DNA from: Terriglobales bacterium
GTDB lineage: Bacteria; Acidobacteriota; Terriglobia; Terriglobales; Acidobacteriaceae
Assembly (NCBI GenBank): GCA_035487355.1
Contig: DATHMF010000020.1
Coordinates: 1-64,000, forward strand
Length of the DNA: 64,000 nucleotides
Reading direction: 5' to 3'
Of the stretch, positions 12,346-22,519 are shown piece after piece. Every line of letters starts with the position of its first letter. Position 1 is the stretch's first letter. Under the pieces are notes generated by a model. It was not told the DNA's origin. It saw nothing but the letters and a program-made list of their open reading frames with translations, and searched no databases. The translations under genes and the position numbers were made by a program.

Positions 12346-14853
12346 CTACTGGCACGAGGCGTTCAGGGCTGTGAAGGTTCCGCTGTATGCTCCAATGCAC
12401 GTATAGGTGTTGCCGCCGCCCGTAAAGACTCCCCCGCCCGCCAACTGCGAGGCTCCCACCTTCACGGCGAATGTGGCACCACCGCTCAGTTGGCTGAAGA
12501 TGGAGTTCGTGCTGCCGCTGATCTCTGAATTGCTGATATTCAGCGTAAAAGCGCTGGCAGAAAACCCCAGGGTCTCAATTCCATAGTTCGTGGGTGCGAG
12601 GGAAGAAGCAATCACACCATTTATCAGGGTGGTTGGGCCTCCGACGATCATGCCCGTGCCATTACTGCTGCCGCCGGTAGTCGTTGCAACAATGTTAGTC
12701 ATGACAGGCACGCTGGAGTCGTTCTCCACGGCGGTGTTGTCATGACCCCCTGAGGCGGTGGCGGTTATGTTGCTCATTGCCGGCGCACACAGGGGAGCGT
12801 TGTTGATAGCGCGGTTGCCGCTTCCCGAAATACCCGTGGCCGTGGCGATGATATTGGTCATTACCGGTGAAGAGCCCGTGCCGCTGCTATTTTCGTTAAA
12901 CACTCCCATGTTGGACGAGCTCCCGCCCGATGCGCTGGCAATCACATTCGTCATGCCCGGCGACGAGGCGATGTTATCAACTGCTGTGTTGCTGGTTGGC
13001 CCCGAAGCATTGACCGTAACACGGGTCATCGTGCCACTCGAGCTGCTGTTAAACATGCCCGTATTATTACTTCCTCCCGTGGCGGTCGCGGTAACATCGT
13101 TCATCACCGGCGCGGAGCCGTTGACGTTGATGATCGCATAGGTGGTAGCGGCGCCAGAAGCTGTGGCCGTTACATGATTCATCACCGCAGACGAGTTGTT
13201 GTTATAGACACCCTGGCTTTGAACGGTTCCACCCGCACCGAGGGCAGTCACGTGCGTCAGCCGCGGTGAGGCAGACACATTAGCGATGCCTGTGCCAAAT
13301 GAGTTACCGCCAGTATTCTTTACGGTCAGAAAACGTAATTCTGCGTTGTTTGCGCCTACGACCGTACCCGTGAGAATACTTGCGCTTCCGGCTGCCGTGA
13401 TCGTGGTCACATCCTCCCCCGAGCCCTCTACATCTACGAACGGCTTCATGGTGAGTGCGCCTGTGCCCAGATCATAAATTCCCGGCTCGATCTTCAGCAG
13501 CCAGGGATTCGTGGCTGAGGCTGTGGTAATGCCTGCCAATGCATTCAGCAATGCTGTCCCGCTGGCAACTGCGTTCCCCGGAACCGGACTCACCACCACT
13601 GTGCGCATAAATGAGGTCGCGCCGCTGGCAATGGTCAGCGTCTGCCCGCTGGGGGTGATGGTGACATTGGAGCCCGCCGCGAGTGTGACGCCATCGAACA
13701 ATCCGTTCAGATTTTTGACCACCTGTCCGGTTGCGATATTTCCCGCCTGGACTGCGTTGCTCGCCAACTGTGCGTTGCCGACACCACCGTTGGTGATGCT
13801 CACACTTCCCGTGCCAGTGATCGGGCTGGGAGTTGTGGTCAATCCCGTGCCTGCTGTGATGCTCACGCTGGGCACTGTGGCTGCAATCGTCAAGCTCTGA
13901 CCACTGGGGGTGATGCTCACGTTCGAACCGGCGGCCAGCGTCACTCCATCGAACAATCCATTCAGGTTCTTGACTACCTGTCCGCCAGCGATATTGCCCG
14001 ACTGCACTGCATTGCCGGCGATATTCGCCGCCTGCACTGCCCCGGCGGCCAACTGCTGGGTGCCAACACCGCCGTCAGCGATGCCGATGGTTCCCGCACC
14101 GGTAATGGGGTTTGGAGTTGCAGTCAATCCGTTGCTGGGCGTGATGCTTTCGTTGCTGCCTGCGGCTGCAATCGTCAGCGTCTGCCCGCTGGGAGTGATG
14201 GTGACATTTGATCCGGCTGCGAGTGTGATGCCATCGAACAATCCATTCAGGTTCTTGACCACCTGTCCGCCTGCGATATTGCCCGACTGCACTGCGTTGC
14301 TCGCCAATTGCGCGTTGCCTACACCGGCGTTCGCGATAGCAATCGTTCCCGTGCCGGTAATCGGGCTGGGCGTTGCGGTGAGGCCGGTTCCGGCTGTGAT
14401 GCTCACGCCAAGAGGAGACTGCCAGCTTGCATTGCCCGAATTGTCGGAAGTGAATACCTTTCCGGCCGCAGCCCCGGTGGACATCGTGAAGGCTGCCACA
14501 CTGGTGGTGCCGCCGATACTGACAATACCGTTGCTCTCAGAGACCAGAGAGTTCGTCAGCGTGTAGGTCTGAGAGATCTTCGGCAGGTTCCCGGCGGTAG
14601 CGTTGCTGCGCATAATGATGGTGTACAGTACCGGTCCTTCGAGTGAACCGGTGGGAGGCGAGACCCGCTGCCAGCGCAAGGCTGGCATCTGCTGACCCTG
14701 CGACCACACTCCCGGAGCAGGGCGCAGACTGGCTACCAGCTCAGTTTGTTTTGGCTGTTGCCCAGTCGACTGTTGAGCTTCGATCCAAGATGGGAATACG
14801 GCAAAAACCGCAAGACACACCGACAGGACCTTCAGGTTCCTGAAAGATTGCAT
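12346..14853 (-). CDS. Large secreted repeat and beta-helix protein
   Basis: The 835-residue protein has a signal peptide ending near SWIEAQQ. Residues 40-125 form an N-terminal module (LRPAPGVW, GPVLYTIIMRSNAT, GIVSIGG) shared with the product of 48521-49762. Residues 150-410 hold three near-identical repeats of about 85 residues containing VVKNLNGLFDG and TLAAGSNVTITPSGQ. Residues 480-760 have ten or so short repeats of the type PVMTNVTATATGGSSNTG, typical of a right-handed parallel beta-helix (pectin-lyase-like). The end has a cysteine pair (TYTCIG, NASC). It is probably a surface or extracellular protein; adhesion or glycan binding is only a guess. Confidence 0.82.
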   Translation of the reverse strand: MQSFRNLKVLSVCLAVFAVFPSWIEAQQSTGQQPKQTELVASLRPAPGVWSQGQQMPALRWQRVSPPTGSLEGPVLYTIIMRSNATAGNLPKISQTYTLTNSLVSESNGIVSIGGTTSVAAFTMSTGAAAGKVFTSDNSGNASWQSPLGVSITAGTGLTATPSPITGTGTIAIANAGVGNAQLASNAVQSGNIAGGQVVKNLNGLFDGITLAAGSNVTITPSGQTLTIAAAGSNESITPSNGLTATPNPITGAGTIGIADGGVGTQQLAAGAVQAANIAGNAVQSGNIAGGQVVKNLNGLFDGVTLAAGSNVSITPSGQSLTIAATVPSVSITAGTGLTTTPSPITGTGSVSITNGGVGNAQLASNAVQAGNIATGQVVKNLNGLFDGVTLAAGSNVTITPSGQTLTIASGATSFMRTVVVSPVPGNAVASGTALLNALAGITTASATNPWLLKIEPGIYDLGTGALTMKPFVDVEGSGEDVTTITAAGSASILTGTVVGANNAELRFLTVKNTGGNSFGTGIANVSASPRLTHVTALGAGGTVQSQGVYNNNSSAVMNHVTATASGAATTYAIINVNGSAPVMNDVTATATGGSNNTGMFNSSSSGTMTRVTVNASGPTSNTAVDNIASSPGMTNVIASASGGSSSNMGVFNENSSGTGSSPVMTNIIATATGISGSGNRAINNAPLCAPAMSNITATASGGHDNTAVENDSSVPVMTNIVATTTGGSSNGTGMIVGGPTTLINGVIASSLAPTNYGIETLGFSASAFTLNISNSEISGSTNSIFSQLSGGATFAVKVGASQLAGGGVFTGGGNTYTCIGAYSGTFTALNASCQ
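13624..14406. repeat. Three coding repeats of about 250 bp
   Basis: These are the DNA repeats behind residues 150-410 of the large secreted protein. Each encodes TPSPITGTG, GVGNAQLASNAVQ, VVKNLNGLFDG and TLAAGSNVTITPSGQ. The high similarity makes copy-number change by recombination likely and can cause assembly collapse. Confidence 0.8.
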
Positions 14854-15446
14854 GAAAGTTCTCCTGTAATTTTAAAGGGTCGCTCGTATTCTGACAGGGA
14901 AGACGTCGAAAGAATAGTGCTTAATATGGCAACAATCGCACTGGTTGAATGCCATGCCCGAGAAGACGCTTATCGGGAGCGCCCAAAACAGGAATGCTAC
15001 CGCCTGCATGTCTGATACAAAGCAAAATCGGCCTTGATACGTGTGTTGACTCGTCCGTCTAGACCGACCATGAAACAGATTTAAGCCGCCGATTCGACAG
15101 AGCCTGTGAGGGGCAATGGTTCTTCAGAATCCGGCGCGGGAGAACATGCCTGGCGATAGATGGGATGCACTTCTTCGCCCTCCCGGAAGGTGCGATAAAA
15201 GACGGCAAAAAGAACGCAGCGCAACACGGCCAGCGTGCCAAGACAAAGATTGAACAGAAGGCCAAAATCCATACCCTTCTCCCGTAGCAGAGGCGTCGTT
15301 TACAGAGACTCTGCTTACATCTTCAGTTTGTGACATGATCCGGGCAATGGCAAATCTAAACTTTTCATAATGGGAATCAGCAAAACGAATAACGCGCCCT
15401 GGACTTCTGGGATCATGCGGATTTTTGAAACAAGTTGTCAGTACCC
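14854..15446. other. Mostly gene-free gap with one possible small gene
   Basis: The only plausible gene is a 63-codon membrane-protein frame at 15081-15272. The remainder contains the leader of the large secreted gene and, near 15344-15371, a weak series of hexamers (GCAATG, TCTAAA, CATAAT) at 11-bp spacing that loosely resembles the stronger arrays at 16127, 17754 and 18610. Nothing else was recognised. Confidence 0.5.
15081..15272 (-). CDS. Possible small membrane protein
   Basis: A 63-codon frame starts MDFGLLFNLCLGTLAVLRCVLF, given as MDFGLLFNLCLG and TLAVLRCVLF, which is one hydrophobic helix, followed by a charged, proline-rich tail ending VESAA. A strong GGGAGAAGG lies just before the ATG on the minus strand, the main reason to believe it. 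Overlapping frames exist, and no homologue is recognised. A weak 11-bp-period hexamer series lies about 70-100 bases upstream. It may be a real small inner-membrane protein or chance. Confidence 0.4.
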   Translation of the reverse strand: MDFGLLFNLCLGTLAVLRCVLFAVFYRTFREGEEVHPIYRQACSPAPDSEEPLPLTGSVESAA

Positions 15447-16100
15447 CTACTGGGACGCTCCGTACTTGTTGTGCAGTTCAAGATTCCCTTCCAGCACGTT
15501 GACCATTTTTTCTCCTGCCAAGCCCCTTATTGGTGTTGGCCGCCAGAGAGAACGAATGAGAGACCAGGTGCTGATCTTTAGTTCAGATATGAAATTGGAC
15601 TTGGATTTGGATTTCACGTTTACGAAGATCACGTGATGGCCCAGGGCAAGCATCAACTGTTCCAGCTTCCGCTCTTGCCGGGGTGTGCGCCAATCTTTTC
15701 TTCCACCTATGACAACCAGGGCACGCGGGGCCAAAACAGATTGCAGGCATTGCTTCCGATCGCGGCAGAGATAAAGCTCAAGGCTTACCTCTTCGGCATC
15801 AATGCCCGATTCGGAAATCACAGCAAGCTGCAGCCGCTCGAGAAAATCAACCGGCACCGGAGGACGATCCAGCGGGAAGTGGAAAGGAACTACTTTGATC
15901 ATCATCAGCGCAACCCGAAGGCCCAGGTTCCTGGCCAAATCGTAGGCAGTCTTCAGGGCTGCGATCGTTCCTTCCTGGGAGGTATAGATAACCGTCACTC
16001 GCAGGCGATGGTCCGAGTCCGAGTCATCCGCATTAAAACGTTCGCTGCAGGAATGCTCAGACTGAACTTCTTCAAGCCGCTTATCGTGCACTAAGGTCAT
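15447..16100 (-). CDS. Universal-stress-protein-like protein
   Basis: I start at the ATG at 16100; a TTG at 16124 would place the start against an upstream operator-like array. The product is about 217 residues. The segment RVTVIYTSQEGTIAALKTAYDLARNLG, in parts RVTVIYTSQEG and ALKTAYDLARNLG, fits the first strand and helix of the USP alpha/beta fold. A later PRALVVIGGRKDW resembles the nucleotide-loop region without the full G-x-x-G-x9-G pattern. The C-terminal 50 residues are a basic extension. It is likely a cytoplasmic stress or signalling protein. USP domains also occur inside KdpD, which is interesting beside a KdpE-like regulator. Confidence 0.65.
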   Translation of the reverse strand: MTLVHDKRLEEVQSEHSCSERFNADDSDSDHRLRVTVIYTSQEGTIAALKTAYDLARNLGLRVALMMIKVVPFHFPLDRPPVPVDFLERLQLAVISESGIDAEEVSLELYLCRDRKQCLQSVLAPRALVVIGGRKDWRTPRQERKLEQLMLALGHHVIFVNVKSKSKSNFISELKISTWSLIRSLWRPTPIRGLAGEKMVNVLEGNLELHNKYGASQ

Positions 16101-16126
16101 TGCAGGTACAAACTTAGACCTCAAGC

Positions 16127-16165
16127 CCTAAGCGAGTCATAAACAAATCATGAACAATTTATAAG
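16127..16165 (-). promoter_or_regulatory. Hexamer array at 11-bp period, before the USP-like gene
   Basis: Plus-strand hexamers CCTAAG, CATAAA, CATGAA and TATAAG start at 16127, 16138, 16149 and 16160, exactly 11 bases apart. On the minus strand they read CTTATA-N5-TTCATG-N5-TTTATG-N5-CTTAGG. Direct repeats at one helical turn are the usual target of OmpR-family regulators, and TTTATA-N5-TTTACA is the E. coli KdpE site as I recall it. The array ends 27 bases before the chosen start, so it could overlap the promoter. Confidence 0.6.
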
Positions 16166-16228
16166 GGCAGAAAGGCGATTGAATCCAAGGAGTTACTTTG
16201 GAGAGCAACCAAGCTTAGCCCAGAAGAG

Positions 16229-16651
16229 TTAAGGGGTGTTCCAATCCTCACGCTGGAGGTGGGTCTTTATGATTAAAGATAGATCAATCACATAAAGTAC
16301 GATCACGACGTCGCCGAGAACAACGGCCACATGACTTGGGGGCAACAACTGAACGATGCCCCACAGAATGAAGGCCAATCCAAGCAACAATCTCTTCAGC
16401 GACTCAATGGGCCTGGGCCGAGCCATCGGTTGCAACGAGACATACGCTAACCCGATTAACAGAAGGGGCGCTGCCGAGCTGACCTCATGTTTTGACCGCA
16501 CAAAATGGGGGAAGGCATCAAGAAGCAGCAGAAAGATGCCGCGGAGAACCGCCACACTCGCGAGTCCGGCACTGACCCACCGCAAGAGACTGTGGAGTAT
16601 AGATTTGGGTTCCCCGGTCAACTCGTTCAATATTGCTTTGACCTCATCCAT
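16229..16651 (-). CDS. Small multi-pass membrane protein
   Basis: I start at the ATG at 16651, which overlaps the stop of the kinase gene by 8 bases (ATGGATGA), rather than at 16711, where the extra codons lie wholly in the kinase frame. The 140-residue product starts MDEVKAILNELTGEPKS and has about four hydrophobic helices (including LLRWVSAGLASVAVLRGIFL, LLLIGLAYVSLQ and VVLGDVVIVLYVIDLSL). The family is not recognised. Coupling to the kinase suggests a membrane partner or target in the same pathway. Confidence 0.65.
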   Translation of the reverse strand: MDEVKAILNELTGEPKSILHSLLRWVSAGLASVAVLRGIFLLLLDAFPHFVRSKHEVSSAAPLLLIGLAYVSLQPMARPRPIESLKRLLLGLAFILWGIVQLLPPSHVAVVLGDVVIVLYVIDLSLIIKTHLQREDWNTP

Positions 16652-17615
16652 GCCGGGCCAGAGAAAACATGAGCACAAGAATGGTGATGGGAATTGCCGC
16701 CAGCATGACATAAAACAAAACTACATTTCTCTCGGTTGAACGCCTGGGGCGCGACTGTTGTATTTCTGTACGCTCGGCCACCCCTATCTCATCGAGGTGT
16801 TCGAGGTCCCAGGCAAACTCGCGGGCGTGGGCATAGCGGTTTATGGGGTCGCGCTCCATGGCGCGATAAATGACTTCCTGCAAGGCAGGGGAAATTTCCG
16901 GATTCAGTTTTCGCGGAGGCACCGGATCATTCACCAGCCGGTCATTCATGATGGCGAGGGAAGTAGGCCCTTGAAAGGGCATTTTTCCGGTCAACATCTC
17001 ATACAGCATGACGCCCAATGCGTAAATGTCGCTGCGGGCATCGCCGCGCTTGCGCTTTACCTGTTCCGGGGAGATGTAGTCAGGCGTTCCCATGGTATGA
17101 GACATTCTGCCGAAGGTCAGGCGCCGCGCCCCGGCCGCTCCGGCAATGCCGAAGTCAATGAGCTTGATATTGTCTTCCGCATCTACCATGACGTTTTCCG
17201 GCTTCAGGTCGCGGTGTACGATCTCGTGCTGATGGATGTACTCCAGCGCATGACAGATGCCAAGCGTAATCTTGATCGCGCGCTCGATGGGAAGCTTCTC
17301 CTGCTCGGTGAGGATCTTGCGCAGCAGGTTGCCTTCCAGCCACTCCATGGCCATGTAGACACGGCTCTGGTCTTCGTTGGAGATCACTTTGATAACGCAA
17401 GGATGATCGAGCTTCTTGCCGATTTCCTGCTCGCGGCGAAAGCGATCAAAGAATACGGGGTCACACTCTACCTCGGGATGCGGAACTTTAATGGCCACTG
17501 GGCAACCGGCGCGCAAATCCGTGCCACGAAAAATAGTTGTCATATAGGTGCGGGCAACCGCACTTTCGATGCGGTAGTGGTCGAGCGTGTCGCCAGGATT
17601 GATGGGTCTCATCAC
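16644..17615 (-). CDS. Ser/Thr protein kinase with C-terminal membrane anchor
   Basis: The 323-residue protein has VAIK with Lys43, HRDLKPENV (134-142), DFG (154-156), and a typical GTPDYISPEQ activation/P+1 segment, so the catalytic residues are intact. The glycine-rich loop is not: where G-x-G-x-x-G is expected it reads SAVARTYMTTIFRG. A single helix at about 297-318 (VVLFYVMLAAIPITILVLMF) anchors it with the kinase domain in the cytoplasm. No PASTA or other sensor follows. A four-unit hexamer array lies 139-177 bases upstream. It phosphorylates unknown targets; the next gene overlaps its stop. Confidence 0.9.
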   Translation of the reverse strand: MMRPINPGDTLDHYRIESAVARTYMTTIFRGTDLRAGCPVAIKVPHPEVECDPVFFDRFRREQEIGKKLDHPCVIKVISNEDQSRVYMAMEWLEGNLLRKILTEQEKLPIERAIKITLGICHALEYIHQHEIVHRDLKPENVMVDAEDNIKLIDFGIAGAAGARRLTFGRMSHTMGTPDYISPEQVKRKRGDARSDIYALGVMLYEMLTGKMPFQGPTSLAIMNDRLVNDPVPPRKLNPEISPALQEVIYRAMERDPINRYAHAREFAWDLEHLDEIGVAERTEIQQSRPRRSTERNVVLFYVMLAAIPITILVLMFSLARHG

Positions 17616-17753
17616 AGCACCTTCTGCGCCGCAATCATTGAACTTGAGGCCATCTCATAAACTGGAAATTCTGAGGAGAACAATGTTTTCGGAGAATGTT
17701 CAGAATGTCCCTCGGTGTCCATAAGATGGCTGAGCTTAAGGTAGGCGAGAGGC

Positions 17754-17792
17754 CCTAAATTATGCATAAACGACCCATAAATAATTTATAAA
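17754..17792 (-). promoter_or_regulatory. Hexamer array at 11-bp period, before the kinase operon
   Basis: Plus-strand hexamers CCTAAA, CATAAA, CATAAA and TATAAA start at 17754, 17765, 17776 and 17787, exactly 11 bases apart. The minus strand, the sense of the kinase gene, reads TTTATA-N5-TTTATG-N5-TTTATG-N5-TTTAGG. It lies between the response-regulator stop and the kinase start, in an otherwise empty 226-base gap, and matches the KdpE-type pattern best of the three arrays. Confidence 0.7.
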
Positions 17793-17841
17793 GACCACGG
17801 ATAAGACACTGAAAACGCTGGGGATAGCCAATCTAGATTAA

Positions 17842-18534
17842 TTATTCTGGCAGGCGCAAACGGTAGCCGATCCAGGGCTCGGTGAGCAGAAACTTGGGGC
17901 TTGCCGGTGTGTGCTCGATCTTCTTTCGCAAACGATTCATGAAGACCCGCAGGTATTCCTGCTCGCCTCCGTAGTCGGGCCCCCAGACTGCCTGCAGTAA
18001 CTCGCGGTGGGTAATCGTCTTGTTAGGATGGGCGGCAAGATAGGAAAGCAGATCGAATTCCTTGCAGGTCAGCCGTATCTGTTCATTACGGGAGATGACT
18101 TGCCGCGCCTTGAAGTCAATCTCAATGTGTCCCAGTTGCAGATTGGTGACCTCGAATTCCGAAGAGACAGCGGCCCTTCGCAGCGCAGCGCGGATGCGCG
18201 CCAGCAATTCAGGCATACTGAAGGGCTTAGTTACGTAGTCGTCAGCTCCAGCATCGAGCGCATCGACTTTGTCTTTTTGGCTGTTGCGCACGGTAAGCAT
18301 GATAATGGCTGCGTCAGAACCGACGCGGATGGCCCGGCAGGTCTCAACCCCGGTCATGCCAGGCATGTTCATATCCAGAATCACCAGATCGAACTTGGCG
18401 GAGCGGAAAAAATCTAACGCCTCGTCGCCGCTGCGAGCGTCGGTAACTTCGTAGCCATGGGTCACGAGTGTGGTCCGCATTACGCGCCGGATCTGTGGCT
18501 CGTCATCTACGATGAGAATACGTGCTTCACTCAC
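17842..18534 (-). CDS. KdpE-like OmpR-family response regulator
   Basis: The 230-residue protein has a receiver domain with acidic pair D10-D11, phospho-acceptor D54 (VILDMNMPGMTG), conserved Thr and Lys (MLTVR, YVTKPFSMPEL), and an OmpR-type winged helix at the C-terminus. The wing region GGEQEYLRVFMNRLRKKIE and LTEPWIGYRL is very close to KdpE. KdpE normally pairs with KdpD and activates kdpFABC for potassium uptake, but none of those genes is in the window. Three arrays resembling KdpE sites lie in the block, one upstream of this gene, so autoregulation is likely. Confidence 0.9.
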   Translation of the reverse strand: MSEARILIVDDEPQIRRVMRTTLVTHGYEVTDARSGDEALDFFRSAKFDLVILDMNMPGMTGVETCRAIRVGSDAAIIMLTVRNSQKDKVDALDAGADDYVTKPFSMPELLARIRAALRRAAVSSEFEVTNLQLGHIEIDFKARQVISRNEQIRLTCKEFDLLSYLAAHPNKTITHRELLQAVWGPDYGGEQEYLRVFMNRLRKKIEHTPASPKFLLTEPWIGYRLRLPE

Positions 18535-18609
18535 GCTGACACCTCCTGCACGTGAGGATCTGAGTCAGCCCGATAGGGCATGATTCAACTATTACGCTAG
18601 ACCTAAGGC

Positions 18610-18659
18610 CATAAGGGAGGAGTAAAGGGTTCGCAAATAATTCGTAAATGAGGTGTAAA
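18610..18659. promoter_or_regulatory. Hexamer array at 11-bp period between regulator and GAF gene
   Basis: Five plus-strand hexamers, CATAAG, AGTAAA, CGCAAA, CGTAAA and TGTAAA, start at 18610, 18621, 18632, 18643 and 18654, each 11 bases apart. The minus strand begins TTTACA-N5-TTTACG-N5-TTTGCG-N5-TTTACT. It lies in the divergent gap and ends 23 bases before a possible -35 for the GAF gene, a suitable position for activation; it is 76 bases upstream of the regulator start. Confidence 0.65.
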
Positions 18660-18682
18660 GCCTCGTTCTTCATTCAATTCGA

Positions 18683-18712
18683 TTGACCCCTGCTTGAACA
18701 CAACATTAAACT
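18683..18712 (+). promoter_or_regulatory. Possible promoter of the GAF-transketolase operon
   Basis: TTGACC at 18683-18688 and TAAACT at 18707-18712 are separated by 18 bases, a reasonable sigma-70 arrangement. It lies directly downstream of the five-hexamer array and 25 bases before the GTG start of the GAF gene. Confidence 0.4.
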
Positions 18713-18736
18713 AGTAAAGAGTTCCTAATCTTCCCT

Positions 18737-19411
18737 GTGGATACCAAAATCATTGATCCGCGCAAGCTTGTGAAGCAGATTGAGCGCATTCTGGCACAAA
18801 AACCGGTCAGGGGAAAGGACGCACCACTGGAGCAGGTGGTTGATCTTCTCTATCAGCAACGGAGATATTCTTCGATTGGTATCTATGCGCTTGTGGGCAA
18901 AAAAATTCTTGGGCTCGCCTACCGAGGGCCAGCATTATCCTGCCTGGAAGTCGCTTTGGGAATAGGTATTGTTGCCCAGAGCGGAGTCATTAAAGCAGCT
19001 CCCGAAGTCAGCCCCCAAATTATCCCTGAAGTGAACCCTGCAATCACTCCACAAACCAGCCAAGCCCTGCCAATCAGTGTGGGTTATACCGATGTTAAGC
19101 GTGGAATTGTTGTTCCCATCAAGGTCGCCGGACGGGTGCTGGGCGTAATTGACGCGGAAAGCGACAGGTTGAAGAGCTTCAGTTATCATGATCAAGTCCT
19201 GCTGAAGCAGGTGGCCTCCCGGGTGGCGCGTTATCTCATCTCAAATGGTAAGGTAGTGATGCAAAAATTACGTAGGCAATCACGGGCAACCGAGGGCAGC
19301 AGCCTTGCAACAGAAACAAACAAGGACAAGAAAATGGCGGTTGACCGTCCGTTGAGCGGAGAGAAGACCAGCAGCCTTAAAGCCACCGCAGGAGAGATGC
19401 TCCACATATGA
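18737..19411 (+). CDS. GAF-domain protein with a proline-rich insert
   Basis: The 224-residue protein starts at a GTG. Residues 25-170 fit a GAF domain: YSSIGIYALVGKKILGLAYRG, quoted as YSSIGIYALVG and ILGLAYRG, then GIVVPIKVAGRVLGVIDAES and DQVLLKQVASRVARYL. An insert near residues 94-118 repeats the pattern PEVSPQI, PEVNPAI, TPQTSQA in the middle of the domain. The last 50 residues are basic and probably disordered. It may bind a small ligand or act as a free-methionine-sulfoxide-reductase relative, but the catalytic cysteines of that family are not evident. Its stop overlaps the transketolase start by ATGA. Confidence 0.8.
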   Translation: MDTKIIDPRKLVKQIERILAQKPVRGKDAPLEQVVDLLYQQRRYSSIGIYALVGKKILGLAYRGPALSCLEVALGIGIVAQSGVIKAAPEVSPQIIPEVNPAITPQTSQALPISVGYTDVKRGIVVPIKVAGRVLGVIDAESDRLKSFSYHDQVLLKQVASRVARYLISNGKVVMQKLRRQSRATEGSSLATETNKDKKMAVDRPLSGEKTSSLKATAGEMLHI

Positions 19412-20286
19412 GCACAGCCTTGATTTCTAACGCAATTAAGATCACCCCGGCCGGCCCGCGGATTGATTCGACCGAAGAACTGAAACGACTCGCCACGCGC
19501 CTGCGCATTGAGATCATAAAGATGATCGGTGCTGCGGGCAGCGGACATCCTGGCGGCTCGCTCTCTGAAGTTGAGTTGCTGGCTGCACTTTATTTCCGCG
19601 TGCTGCGGCATAACCCGAAAAATCCGGGCTGGAGAGAGCGCGACCGCTTTATCCTCAGCAAAGGCCACGGCTGCCCGGCGCTTTATGCCGTGATGGCGGA
19701 GGCAGGATATATTGATCCAGCGCTTTTATCGACGTTGCGAAAATTGGGGTCGCCACTGCAGGGGCATCCGGATAAACGCATGCTGCCGGCGCTGGAGGCC
19801 TCTACAGGATCGCTTGGCCAGGGACTTTCCATCGGGATCGGCATGGCACTGGCGGCGCAGTTAGATAAGCTCGACTACCACACCTTTGTCATGGTGGGGG
19901 ACGGAGAAATTCAGGAGGGCCAGAATTGGGAGGCGGCCATGTTCGCTCCCTATCACAAGCTGAGCAACTTGACTCTCATCGTTGATTACAACCACCAGCA
20001 GCTTGATGGCTTTACCAAAGACATTCTCGACGTGGACCCATTGCCGGCAAAGTTCGCGAGCTTTGGATGGAATGCCGTGGAAATTGACGGCCACAACTTC
20101 GATGAGGTAATTCCCGCTTTGGAAAAGGCGCGGGCGAACACCAACGGTAAACCGGTGGCCATCATTGCCAACACGATTAAAGGCAAAGGCGTCTCGTTTA
20201 TGGAGAATAATCCCAAGTGGCACGGGGTTGCGCCTAAGCCGGAAGAAGTTGCAGCGGCGGTAAAAGAACTGGAAAGTACGAAGTGA
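19408..20286 (+). CDS. Transketolase, N-terminal subunit
   Basis: The 292-residue protein is the thiamine-diphosphate-binding half of a split transketolase. It has GAAGSGHPGGSLS near the start, ILSKGHGCPALYAV, GSLGQGLSIG, and the ThDP motif GDGEIQEGQNWE ending in DYN. Together with the following gene it moves two-carbon units between sugar phosphates in the pentose phosphate pathway. It overlaps the GAF gene by four bases, a coupling that ties a sensor-like protein to central carbon metabolism. The C-terminal subunit starts 176 bases later. Confidence 0.95.
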   Translation: MSTALISNAIKITPAGPRIDSTEELKRLATRLRIEIIKMIGAAGSGHPGGSLSEVELLAALYFRVLRHNPKNPGWRERDRFILSKGHGCPALYAVMAEAGYIDPALLSTLRKLGSPLQGHPDKRMLPALEASTGSLGQGLSIGIGMALAAQLDKLDYHTFVMVGDGEIQEGQNWEAAMFAPYHKLSNLTLIVDYNHQQLDGFTKDILDVDPLPAKFASFGWNAVEIDGHNFDEVIPALEKARANTNGKPVAIIANTIKGKGVSFMENNPKWHGVAPKPEEVAAAVKELESTK

Positions 20287-20395
20287 GAAGTATGAAGCGA
20301 GAAGTACGAATTTACGATTTCTGATTTTCGATTTACGATTTTTACTGTGAGAGATAATTCTGCATTCTTAAATCGTAATTCGTCAATCGTAATTC
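20287..20395. repeat. AT-rich palindromic word array, copy 1
   Basis: The gap between the two transketolase genes repeats ACGATTT/CGATTTACGATTT to the left and AAATCGTAATTCGT to the right, so the two halves are inverted copies that could fold together. A similar array follows the C-subunit gene at 21447-21561. Confidence 0.75.
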
Positions 20396-20462
20396 CCACT
20401 TTGTATTGGCAACCTGGCTCGAATCTTGCGATAAATTTTGAGCATTACTTAACTTAAGAAAA

Positions 20463-21443
20463 ATGCACATGGCGACTACTCCGACAAAACCGAAATTCGA
20501 ATTGAAGATGGGAGCAGCCACGCGCGAGGCCTACGGGCAGGCGCTGGTCGAGCTGGGCACGAAGGACCCGAACGTAGTGGTTCTGGATGCCGATCTGGCA
20601 AAATCAACCTTCAGCGCCAAGTTCCAGGAGAAGTTCCCTGAGCGCTTCTTCACCTGCGGCATTGCCGAGGCCAACATGGTGAGCATTTCGAGCGGCCTGG
20701 CGCTGTGCGGCAAGCTGACCTTTGCTTCTTCATTCGCAGTTTTTCTCTGCGACAAAGGCTACGACCAGATGCGCACCTGCGTTGCCTACCCTCGCGTGAA
20801 CGCCAAGTTCTGCGGCTCACATGGCGGCATCTCCATCGGCGAAGATGGACCGAGCCAGCAATCGGTAGAAGACATTGCCCTCATGTGCGGATTGGCTGGG
20901 TTCACAGTCCTGGTTCCCTCCGATGAATTCTGTGCGCGCGCCCTGGTGCATCGCATGGCGGAGCACGTGGGACCTGTCTACATGCGCACGGCGCGTGCAA
21001 AGAGTCCCATCATCTATTCAGCCGCTGATACCTTTGAGATTGGCAAGGCGAAAGTTCACGGCGATGGCCGTGATGTGGCCATTGTCGCCTGTGGCCTTGA
21101 GGTTGGCTATGCCTTGCACGCGCAGGCGCAACTGGAAGAAGAGGGCATTCACGCCCGCGTAATTGACATGCACACCATCAAGCCGATGGATGACGACGCC
21201 GTCGCCAAGGCCGCGCAGGAGTGCGGCGCGATTGTCACTGCGGAAGAGCACCTGCTTGATGGCGGATTGGGCGCGCACGTGGCGCAGTCTGTAGCCAAGT
21301 CCAAGCCCGTGCCCATGGAGTTTGTCGGCATCCAGGACACCTACGCCGAATCGGGCACGCCCGACCAGCTTATGGAAAAGTACGGACTTACGGCGCCTCA
21401 CATCGTGAAAGCTGTCCACGCCGTTCTAAAGCGGAAGAGCTAG
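20463..21443 (+). CDS. Transketolase, C-terminal subunit
   Basis: The 326-residue protein is the pyrimidine-binding half: TREAYGQALVELG, VVLDADLAKST, FTCGIAEANMVSISSGLALCG with the conserved Glu, and SHGGISIGEDGPSQQS. The C-terminal transketolase domain includes ARVIDMHTIKPMD. It completes the active site with the N-subunit. The start is either the ATG at 20463 or the one at 20469, two codons later. AT-rich palindromic arrays flank the gene on both sides. Confidence 0.95.
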   Translation: MHMATTPTKPKFELKMGAATREAYGQALVELGTKDPNVVVLDADLAKSTFSAKFQEKFPERFFTCGIAEANMVSISSGLALCGKLTFASSFAVFLCDKGYDQMRTCVAYPRVNAKFCGSHGGISIGEDGPSQQSVEDIALMCGLAGFTVLVPSDEFCARALVHRMAEHVGPVYMRTARAKSPIIYSAADTFEIGKAKVHGDGRDVAIVACGLEVGYALHAQAQLEEEGIHARVIDMHTIKPMDDDAVAKAAQECGAIVTAEEHLLDGGLGAHVAQSVAKSKPVPMEFVGIQDTYAESGTPDQLMEKYGLTAPHIVKAVHAVLKRKS

Positions 21444-21446
21444 ATT

Positions 21447-21561
21447 TCTGATTTACGATTTTCGATTTACAGAAACGTGGTTGAATAAATGCTTAACAGA
21501 GCCAATTTATAAATTAAGACTACAGAAATCGTAAATCACAAAATCGTAATTCGTAAATCGT
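21447..21561. repeat. AT-rich palindromic word array, copy 2
   Basis: Directly after the transketolase C gene, words such as CTGATTTACGATTTTCG are followed about 80 bases later by AAATCGTAAATCACAAAATCG, the inverted counterparts. The layout is the same as at 20287-20395. Confidence 0.75.
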
Positions 21562-21568
21562 CCTTCCC

Positions 21569-22381
21569 ATGCCTCGCTACGACTACCGCCAACTCGGACC
21601 AACGCCTGCAGCCGAAAAAACATTTCTTGGCTGGATTGAGTCGCTCGACCGCGAGTTTGCGAACCGCGATCCCGAGCACCGCAGTCTGGCGGTCCGCAAC
21701 GCTCTGCACGAGTTGTATCTCGGCCGCGGCTACGAAGAGCCCAAGCTCACCGAAACCCTGACGCAGCAGGCATTGGTGCATTCTTTTGATCCGCGCAACG
21801 CCACGCTTGAACCCGAATACTACGGCGACGTGGACCCGGCAAAATACGCCGAGCGCAAACCGCTGATCTGGTTCTGGATGATGTATGACCGCTCGCCCGT
21901 CGGGCTGAACCACTGGCTGGGCTTCCGCGTCCGCGCTATGCTGGCGCGGCACATCTTCAAATATTGCGGTAAGAACGTAAAAATCTTCCACGGTGTCGAA
22001 ATCTCCTATGGCTATAACCTGACGGTGGAAGACAACTGCACCATTCACAAATACGTTCTGCTCGATGACCGCGGTGAAATTATTCTCCATGAGGGCAGCT
22101 CGGTCTCCGATTACGCCAACGTGTACTCGCACGAGCATGACCTCAACGACGGCATGATCGTCACCAACGTTGCCACCGAGATCGGTCCTAAGGCACGCAT
22201 CACCTACCACGGCACCGTGCTCAGCGGCGTAAAGATCGGCGAGCATGGCATGCTGGGCGCGATGGGCGTGGCCACAAAAGATATTGAGCCCTATCACATC
22301 AAGGGTGGCATTCCTGCCAGGACGCTAAAGGTTAAAACCATTGCTCCTCCTGGCCAGCCCCCATCCCCTGAGAAAAAGTAG
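21569..22381 (+). CDS. Hexapeptide-repeat acyltransferase
   Basis: The 270-residue protein has an alpha-helical N-terminal half and a C-terminal left-handed beta-helix with imperfect hexapeptides (NVKIFHGVEISYGYNLTVE, GSSVSDYANVYSHEHDL, GVKIGEHGMLGAMGVA). The histidine in YSHEHDL is the likely catalytic base of the maltose/galactoside O-acetyltransferase type. It ends in GGIPARTLKVK, the usual tail of these enzymes. The acceptor is unknown. It follows the transketolase pair after a 125-base palindromic array, and a possible terminator follows. Confidence 0.85.
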   Translation: MPRYDYRQLGPTPAAEKTFLGWIESLDREFANRDPEHRSLAVRNALHELYLGRGYEEPKLTETLTQQALVHSFDPRNATLEPEYYGDVDPAKYAERKPLIWFWMMYDRSPVGLNHWLGFRVRAMLARHIFKYCGKNVKIFHGVEISYGYNLTVEDNCTIHKYVLLDDRGEIILHEGSSVSDYANVYSHEHDLNDGMIVTNVATEIGPKARITYHGTVLSGVKIGEHGMLGAMGVATKDIEPYHIKGGIPARTLKVKTIAPPGQPPSPEKK

Positions 22382-22410
22382 GACGCATTGGCATTGTTGG
22401 CGTCTTTTTT
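22382..22410 (+). terminator. Possible intrinsic terminator after the acyltransferase gene
   Basis: GACGC at 22382 pairs with GCGTC at 22400-22404 and is followed directly by six T residues. The loop is long (13 bases) and the stem short, so it is moderate at best, but the position just after the stop is right. Confidence 0.4.
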
Positions 22411-22425
22411 GAGCAATCGGCGTTG

Positions 22426-22448
22426 ATCCGCGTTCATCCGCGGCGAAA
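22426..22448. repeat. Dispersed 23-bp repeat, copy 2
   Basis: Identical to the word at 1423-1445, again intergenic and about 70 bases before a housekeeping gene (trpS here, sucC there: about 115 bases). Confidence 0.7.
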
Positions 22449-22519
22449 AGATTTGAAACTCGAAACTTGAAACTGTCGCCGTGTTACCATCGTAAAAACC
22501 TTCGTCTCCAGAGAGTTGA

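Follow-up and report, generated by a model that had tools for sequence, protein, structure and literature searches.

Tandem 11-bp repeat arrays as predicted KdpE-type operators of a duplicated orphan KdpE in a Terriglobales genome

Three arrays of hexameric repeats are found on the minus strand of a 64,000-nucleotide stretch of a Terriglobales genome (Acidobacteriota; contig DATHMF010000020.1, positions 1 to 64,000), hereafter the window, together with the gene of an orphan OmpR-family response regulator (Table 1). Which regulator reads these arrays, and which genes does it control where the potassium pump is missing? A preliminary description, made from the sequence, proposed a local KdpE-like regulon without Kdp pump genes. 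According to our analysis, the arrays are very probably KdpE-type operators, through which a duplicated orphan KdpE would drive its own gene, a Ser/Thr kinase operon and the gene of a USP-fold protein, with activation of the PhoB type.

Table 1. Coordinates (window positions), strand and scores of the predicted operators, their -10-like elements and the associated genes
Feature	Coordinates	Strand	Description	Array + -10 profile (bits)	Relatives-only model R2 (bits)
Operator array 1 (predicted)	16127..16165	-	CTTATA/TTCATG/TTTATG/CTTAGG, 4 units, 5-bp spacers; upstream of USP-fold gene	39.1	29.0
Operator array 2 (predicted)	17754..17792	-	TTTATA/TTTATG/TTTATG/TTTAGG, 4 units, 5-bp spacers; upstream of kinase operon	41.6	34.0
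Operator array 3 (predicted)	18610..18659	-	TTTACA/TTTACG/TTTGCG/TTTACT/CTTATG, 5 units, 5-bp spacers; upstream of regulator gene	37.1	25.5
-10-like element TAAGTT	16111..16116	-	10 bp after array 1
-10-like element TACCTT	17738..17743	-	10 bp after array 2
-10-like element TAGCGT	18594..18599	-	10 bp after array 3
USP-fold protein, 217 aa	15447..16100	-	No Pfam hit; homologous to the small gene that separates kdpE from kdpFABC in relatives
Membrane protein ORF, second gene of kinase operon	16229..16711	-	Overlaps kinase 3' end; no Pfam family
Hanks-type Ser/Thr protein kinase	16644..17615	-	Pfam Pkinase 5.6e-50; hydrophobic C-terminal segment
KdpE-type OmpR-family response regulator, orphan	17842..18534	-	No pump or histidine kinase adjoining

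Arrays in the window, the genome and the relatives

The three minus-strand arrays of TTTA(T/C)(A/G) units with an exact 11-bp period are present as the preliminary description had them, and their scores are far above chance. A matrix made from the 13 array hexamers, which is circular when scored on the window itself, yields four-unit scores of 36.1, 29.0 and 28.4 at period 11. With the same matrix, the next non-overlapping period-11 site of the window reaches 13.0 and the best window site at any other period (8-15) 17.8, and random 64-kb sequences peak at 14.7 or less in 19 of 20 cases, the remaining one at 24.1. A simple consensus pattern search gave more control hits than forward hits. Rfam detected no RNA elements in 14000-22500. 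Since the window matrix is circular for the window, a model trained on the arrays of other genomes only (R2) provides the stronger test.

The host genome (5.43 Mb) was scanned with sequence-only profile models. The profile of array plus -10 finds seven strong sites, i.e. three in the window, three on contig C41 and one at C16:19902-19957, followed by an eighth with an E value of 0.12; its best site is array 2. As six of the seven sites were part of its training set, another one was derived solely from other genomes. This relatives-only profile ranks the same seven sites highest, with E values of 1.1e-7 to 1.2e-3 against 0.09 for the following site, and places the window arrays first, third and fourth genome-wide. 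Arrays of this strength are rare in the genome. The C16 site is located upstream of a BBP2 outer-membrane porin, just past a paralogue of the window kinase. At this locus (L141:6122-7957) the porin with its array is followed by glutamine synthetase, and the kinase paralogue belongs to a permease-PP2C-kinase cluster. A sample of the phylum (197 genomes, strict filters) possesses strong matches in 8 genomes, seven in the present one and a single match in each of seven others; this could mean an unusually large regulon in the present genome, or a profile fitted to its lineage.

Conservation was assessed in 80 loci from public genomes of Acidobacteriota, chosen by regulator protein search and not by their arrays. 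Among the 45 loci in which the start of kdpA is readable, the window-only hexamer matrix (threshold score of at least 18) detects a co-directional array upstream of kdpA in 35, compared with 0/45 on the opposite strand and 1/45 for six other periods together; about a fifth of these loci have no array at this threshold. The arrays are conserved at kdp loci. USP-like genes are preceded by an array in 15 of 22 cases (controls 0), and homologues of the kinase with an upstream array occur at G010 (same family), L055 and L072. Other putative targets near the relatives' arrays are a BBP2 porin, a DUF2254 membrane protein and an APC-family permease. The permease (753 aa; L040:2223-4616) adjoins kdpE, has an array upstream and is possibly another K+ importer. 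Arrays upstream of DUF2254-type membrane proteins lie near kdp loci at L076:4191-6106 and L052:4337-4375. Our literature searches retrieved no description of KdpE operators in Acidobacteriota.

The profile of 63 distinct extended arrays, a set that contains a few near-duplicate loci so that counts are not fully independent, comprises four conserved units, with no conservation in the adjoining unit on either side. The standard operator length is four units, not an open-ended number. The preliminary description expected the N5 spacers to drift; they are partly conserved instead, leaning to AATTC or ACTTC. A TAnnnT motif, which was not used for selecting the arrays, starts exactly 10 bp past the last unit in 36/63 arrays; each other offset between 0 and 35 accounts for 0-3 of the 63. 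Given this fixed offset, the arrays look like activator-driven promoters.

Regulator copies, kdp loci and predicted targets

The window regulator is encoded by a full open frame and has the OmpR/PhoB architecture of receiver and winged helix (Pfam Response_reg and Trans_reg_C), with the phospho-acceptor D52 and with K101 retained. It also keeps the equivalents of E. coli KdpE R193 (here R196), R200 and T215, each of which is required in E. coli KdpE; R193 is reportedly needed for DNA binding and conserved only among KdpE orthologues (PMC3264566). An Arg occupies the R193-equivalent position in 106 of 109 aligned regulators. NCBIfam equivalogs gave no name to the window regulator, which scores 200.8 bits where the KdpE cut-off is 325. 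The KdpE proteins of C41 and C86, both in kdp loci, fall below this cut-off as well (189 and 202 bits), so the model looks lineage-bound; for the regulators of L047 and L055 it is not listed.

The genome contains three KdpE-type regulators: the window copy, the C41 copy (82% identical) and the C86 copy (55%). In a quick tree of the 109 regulators the window copy is sister to the C41 KdpE (support 99), in a clade of regulators that mostly adjoin kdp genes. The KdpE-like identity proposed for the encoded protein is hence borne out by its 82% paralogue before kdpABC, by the tree and by the retained R196. The recognition helices of the window and C41 copies are nearly identical, which makes it probable that each recognises all seven sites of the genome.

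On C41, the KdpE copy is directly followed by kdpA, kdpB and kdpC, and arrays of the same kind precede kdpA, the KdpE gene and a divergent USP-like gene. A weaker fourth C41 array (L036:9243-9281, minus strand) lies downstream of the USP-like gene and is without a clear target. C86 contains a KdpE copy, a related array and a split KdpD, whose sensor and histidine-kinase halves are separate. It represents a second kdp locus (L142:3297-4122), in which KdpE is intact and a 32-residue kdpA remnant lies downstream. C86 is the only place in this genome with KdpD, and C41 the only one with an intact KdpA; neither kdpD nor pump genes are found in the window's neighbourhood; such adjacency is a usual feature of KdpE, not a strict requirement. 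The earlier statement that kdpFABC and kdpD are missing holds for this region, but the term "regulon without Kdp" does not, with kdpABC at C41 and the split KdpD at C86: the window is a satellite of the kdp regulon. As phosphodonor, the split KdpD is the likely candidate.

The kdp regulator would accordingly have been duplicated in this genome, the C41 copy staying with kdpABC and the window copy, which has neither pump nor histidine kinase beside it, driving its own gene, the Ser/Thr kinase-membrane operon and the USP-fold protein. A competing explanation is that the window copy is a decaying duplicate, its arrays being vestiges that only the intact C41 KdpE still uses. The missing kinase and pump, and the broken kdpA fragment of the C86 locus in the same genome, are compatible with decay; the full open frame, the intact D52, K101 and DNA-contact residues, and the position of the genome's best-scoring site within the window (array 2) make it improbable.

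Among the targets named in the preliminary description, the regulator gene, the USP-like gene and the kinase-membrane operon each have a co-directional array with TAnnnT 10 bp downstream, and the window KdpE probably drives all three. The USP-fold protein matches its C41 copy at 59%. Its AlphaFold core has a pLDDT >90, and the top Foldseek matches are USP proteins; the second-best solved match is the c-di-AMP-bound USP domain of a KdpD (7ji4, TM ~0.6 by target length). The likely ATG of its gene lies ~11 nt past the -10 (window 16098-16116), and the distance is similarly short in relatives, which suggests a nearly leaderless transcript. The window kinase matches its paralogue on contig C16 at 70%; as the ancestral context is permease-PP2C-kinase, it looks like a copy recruited to KdpE control. 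The likely start of the membrane protein ORF is near 16651.

A GAF-transketolase unit was likewise thought to be under this control. Array 3 does lie between the regulator gene and the GAF gene (18737), and might serve these divergent genes in addition. However, both the array and its -10 face the regulator gene, GAF or transketolase genes stand beside kdpE in no relatives' locus, and the C41 regulator has an array of its own without such a neighbour. Joint control is unlikely, and the unit was rejected as a target on array orientation and unconserved neighbourhood. The N- and C-terminal parts of the transketolase are separate genes (window 19408-21443).

Identity and working of the operator

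Arrays of this kind could also serve another OmpR/PhoB-family regulator, PhoB- or MtrA-like, with an indirect link to kdp. PhoB boxes have an 11-nt repeat unit too (PMC4415409); the period is common to other OmpR-family regulators and therefore proves nothing alone. Moreover, the models of RpaB, MtrA and YycF give the window regulator slightly higher scores than the KdpE model does. Against such a regulator stand the arrays upstream of the relatives' kdp operons (35/45), the hexamer, which fits the proven KdpE half-site TTTA(T/C)A and not the TGTCA of PhoB, the presence of the KdpE-only Arg, and the kdp linkage of the regulator gene in relatives, all of which render this reading very unlikely. 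An origin of the repeats by chance, as A+T-rich tandem sequence of promoters, has, in spite of their A/T-rich units, a negligible probability, being contradicted by the period control, the strand control, the genome-wide ranking and the fixed -10 offset.

The arrays are thus likely the KdpE operator of Acidobacteriota. We infer binding, activation and occupancy by two dimers as follows: in response to a potassium signal, KdpE phosphorylated by its presumed donor would form two head-to-tail dimers on the four tandem half-sites; the second pair of half-sites stands at the position of a -35 element, 10 bp from the -10, so that KdpE would bring in RNA polymerase in a PhoB-like way. Polymeric binding, at which the preliminary description had hinted, is unnecessary, because four units are the norm for the operator in these Acidobacteriota and fit two tandem dimers.

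The specificity of the operator suffices to enumerate the regulon of a genome, here seven sites. Through this operator, K+ stress would be connected with a Ser/Thr kinase, an outer-membrane porin and a USP-fold protein. A K+-responsive phosphorylation layer thereby becomes directly testable, and unannotated genes gain a likely role. Rather doubtfully, the Hanks-type kinase and the free-standing USP-fold protein may have been recruited to act on Kdp itself, e.g. through phosphorylation of KdpB or KdpE and through nucleotide sensing. If so, the two would supply in trans what E. coli packs into KdpD, with its serine-kinase and USP domains. The N-terminal domain of E. coli KdpD is a serine kinase for KdpB (PMC11018627), and E. 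coli UspC is described in PMC2714519 as binding the KdpD USP domain and scaffolding KdpDE.

Comparison with known systems

What is known of KdpDE, a textbook two-component system, comes mainly from the two-half-site operator of E. coli. In Acidobacteriota, which are major soil bacteria with scant regulatory data, the operator appears to have four half-sites and to abut the -10, and with it KdpE would activate in the manner of PhoB.

The proven E. coli KdpE box is TTTATA-N5-TTTACA, with a footprint from -72 to -50 (PMC3264566). The window matrix gives 9.2 for TTTATA, 8.0 for TTTACA and far less for the units next to them, which leaves E. coli with two half-sites. Half-site sequence, 11-bp spacing and the KdpE-specific Arg of the recognition helix are shared with the E. 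coli KdpDE-kdpFABC system, and one matrix fits both. In contrast, the two E. coli half-sites lie upstream of the -35, ~42 bp from the likely -10 (TACCCT in our own reading of the sequence), whereas the four or five units of the window arrays end 10 bp from it. Unlike E. coli KdpE, the window regulator is not adjacent to the pump or KdpD.

The operators of Bacillus subtilis PhoP consist of four TT(A/C/T)A-type repeats; they resemble the window arrays in having four tandem half-sites with ~5-bp spacers, and differ in regulator and regulon. The PhoB operator stands in place of the -35 element, as the window arrays do. The Pho box is also composed of 11-nt head-to-tail units (PMC4415409), but its half-site is TGTCA, and PhoB possesses D196 where KdpE has R193.
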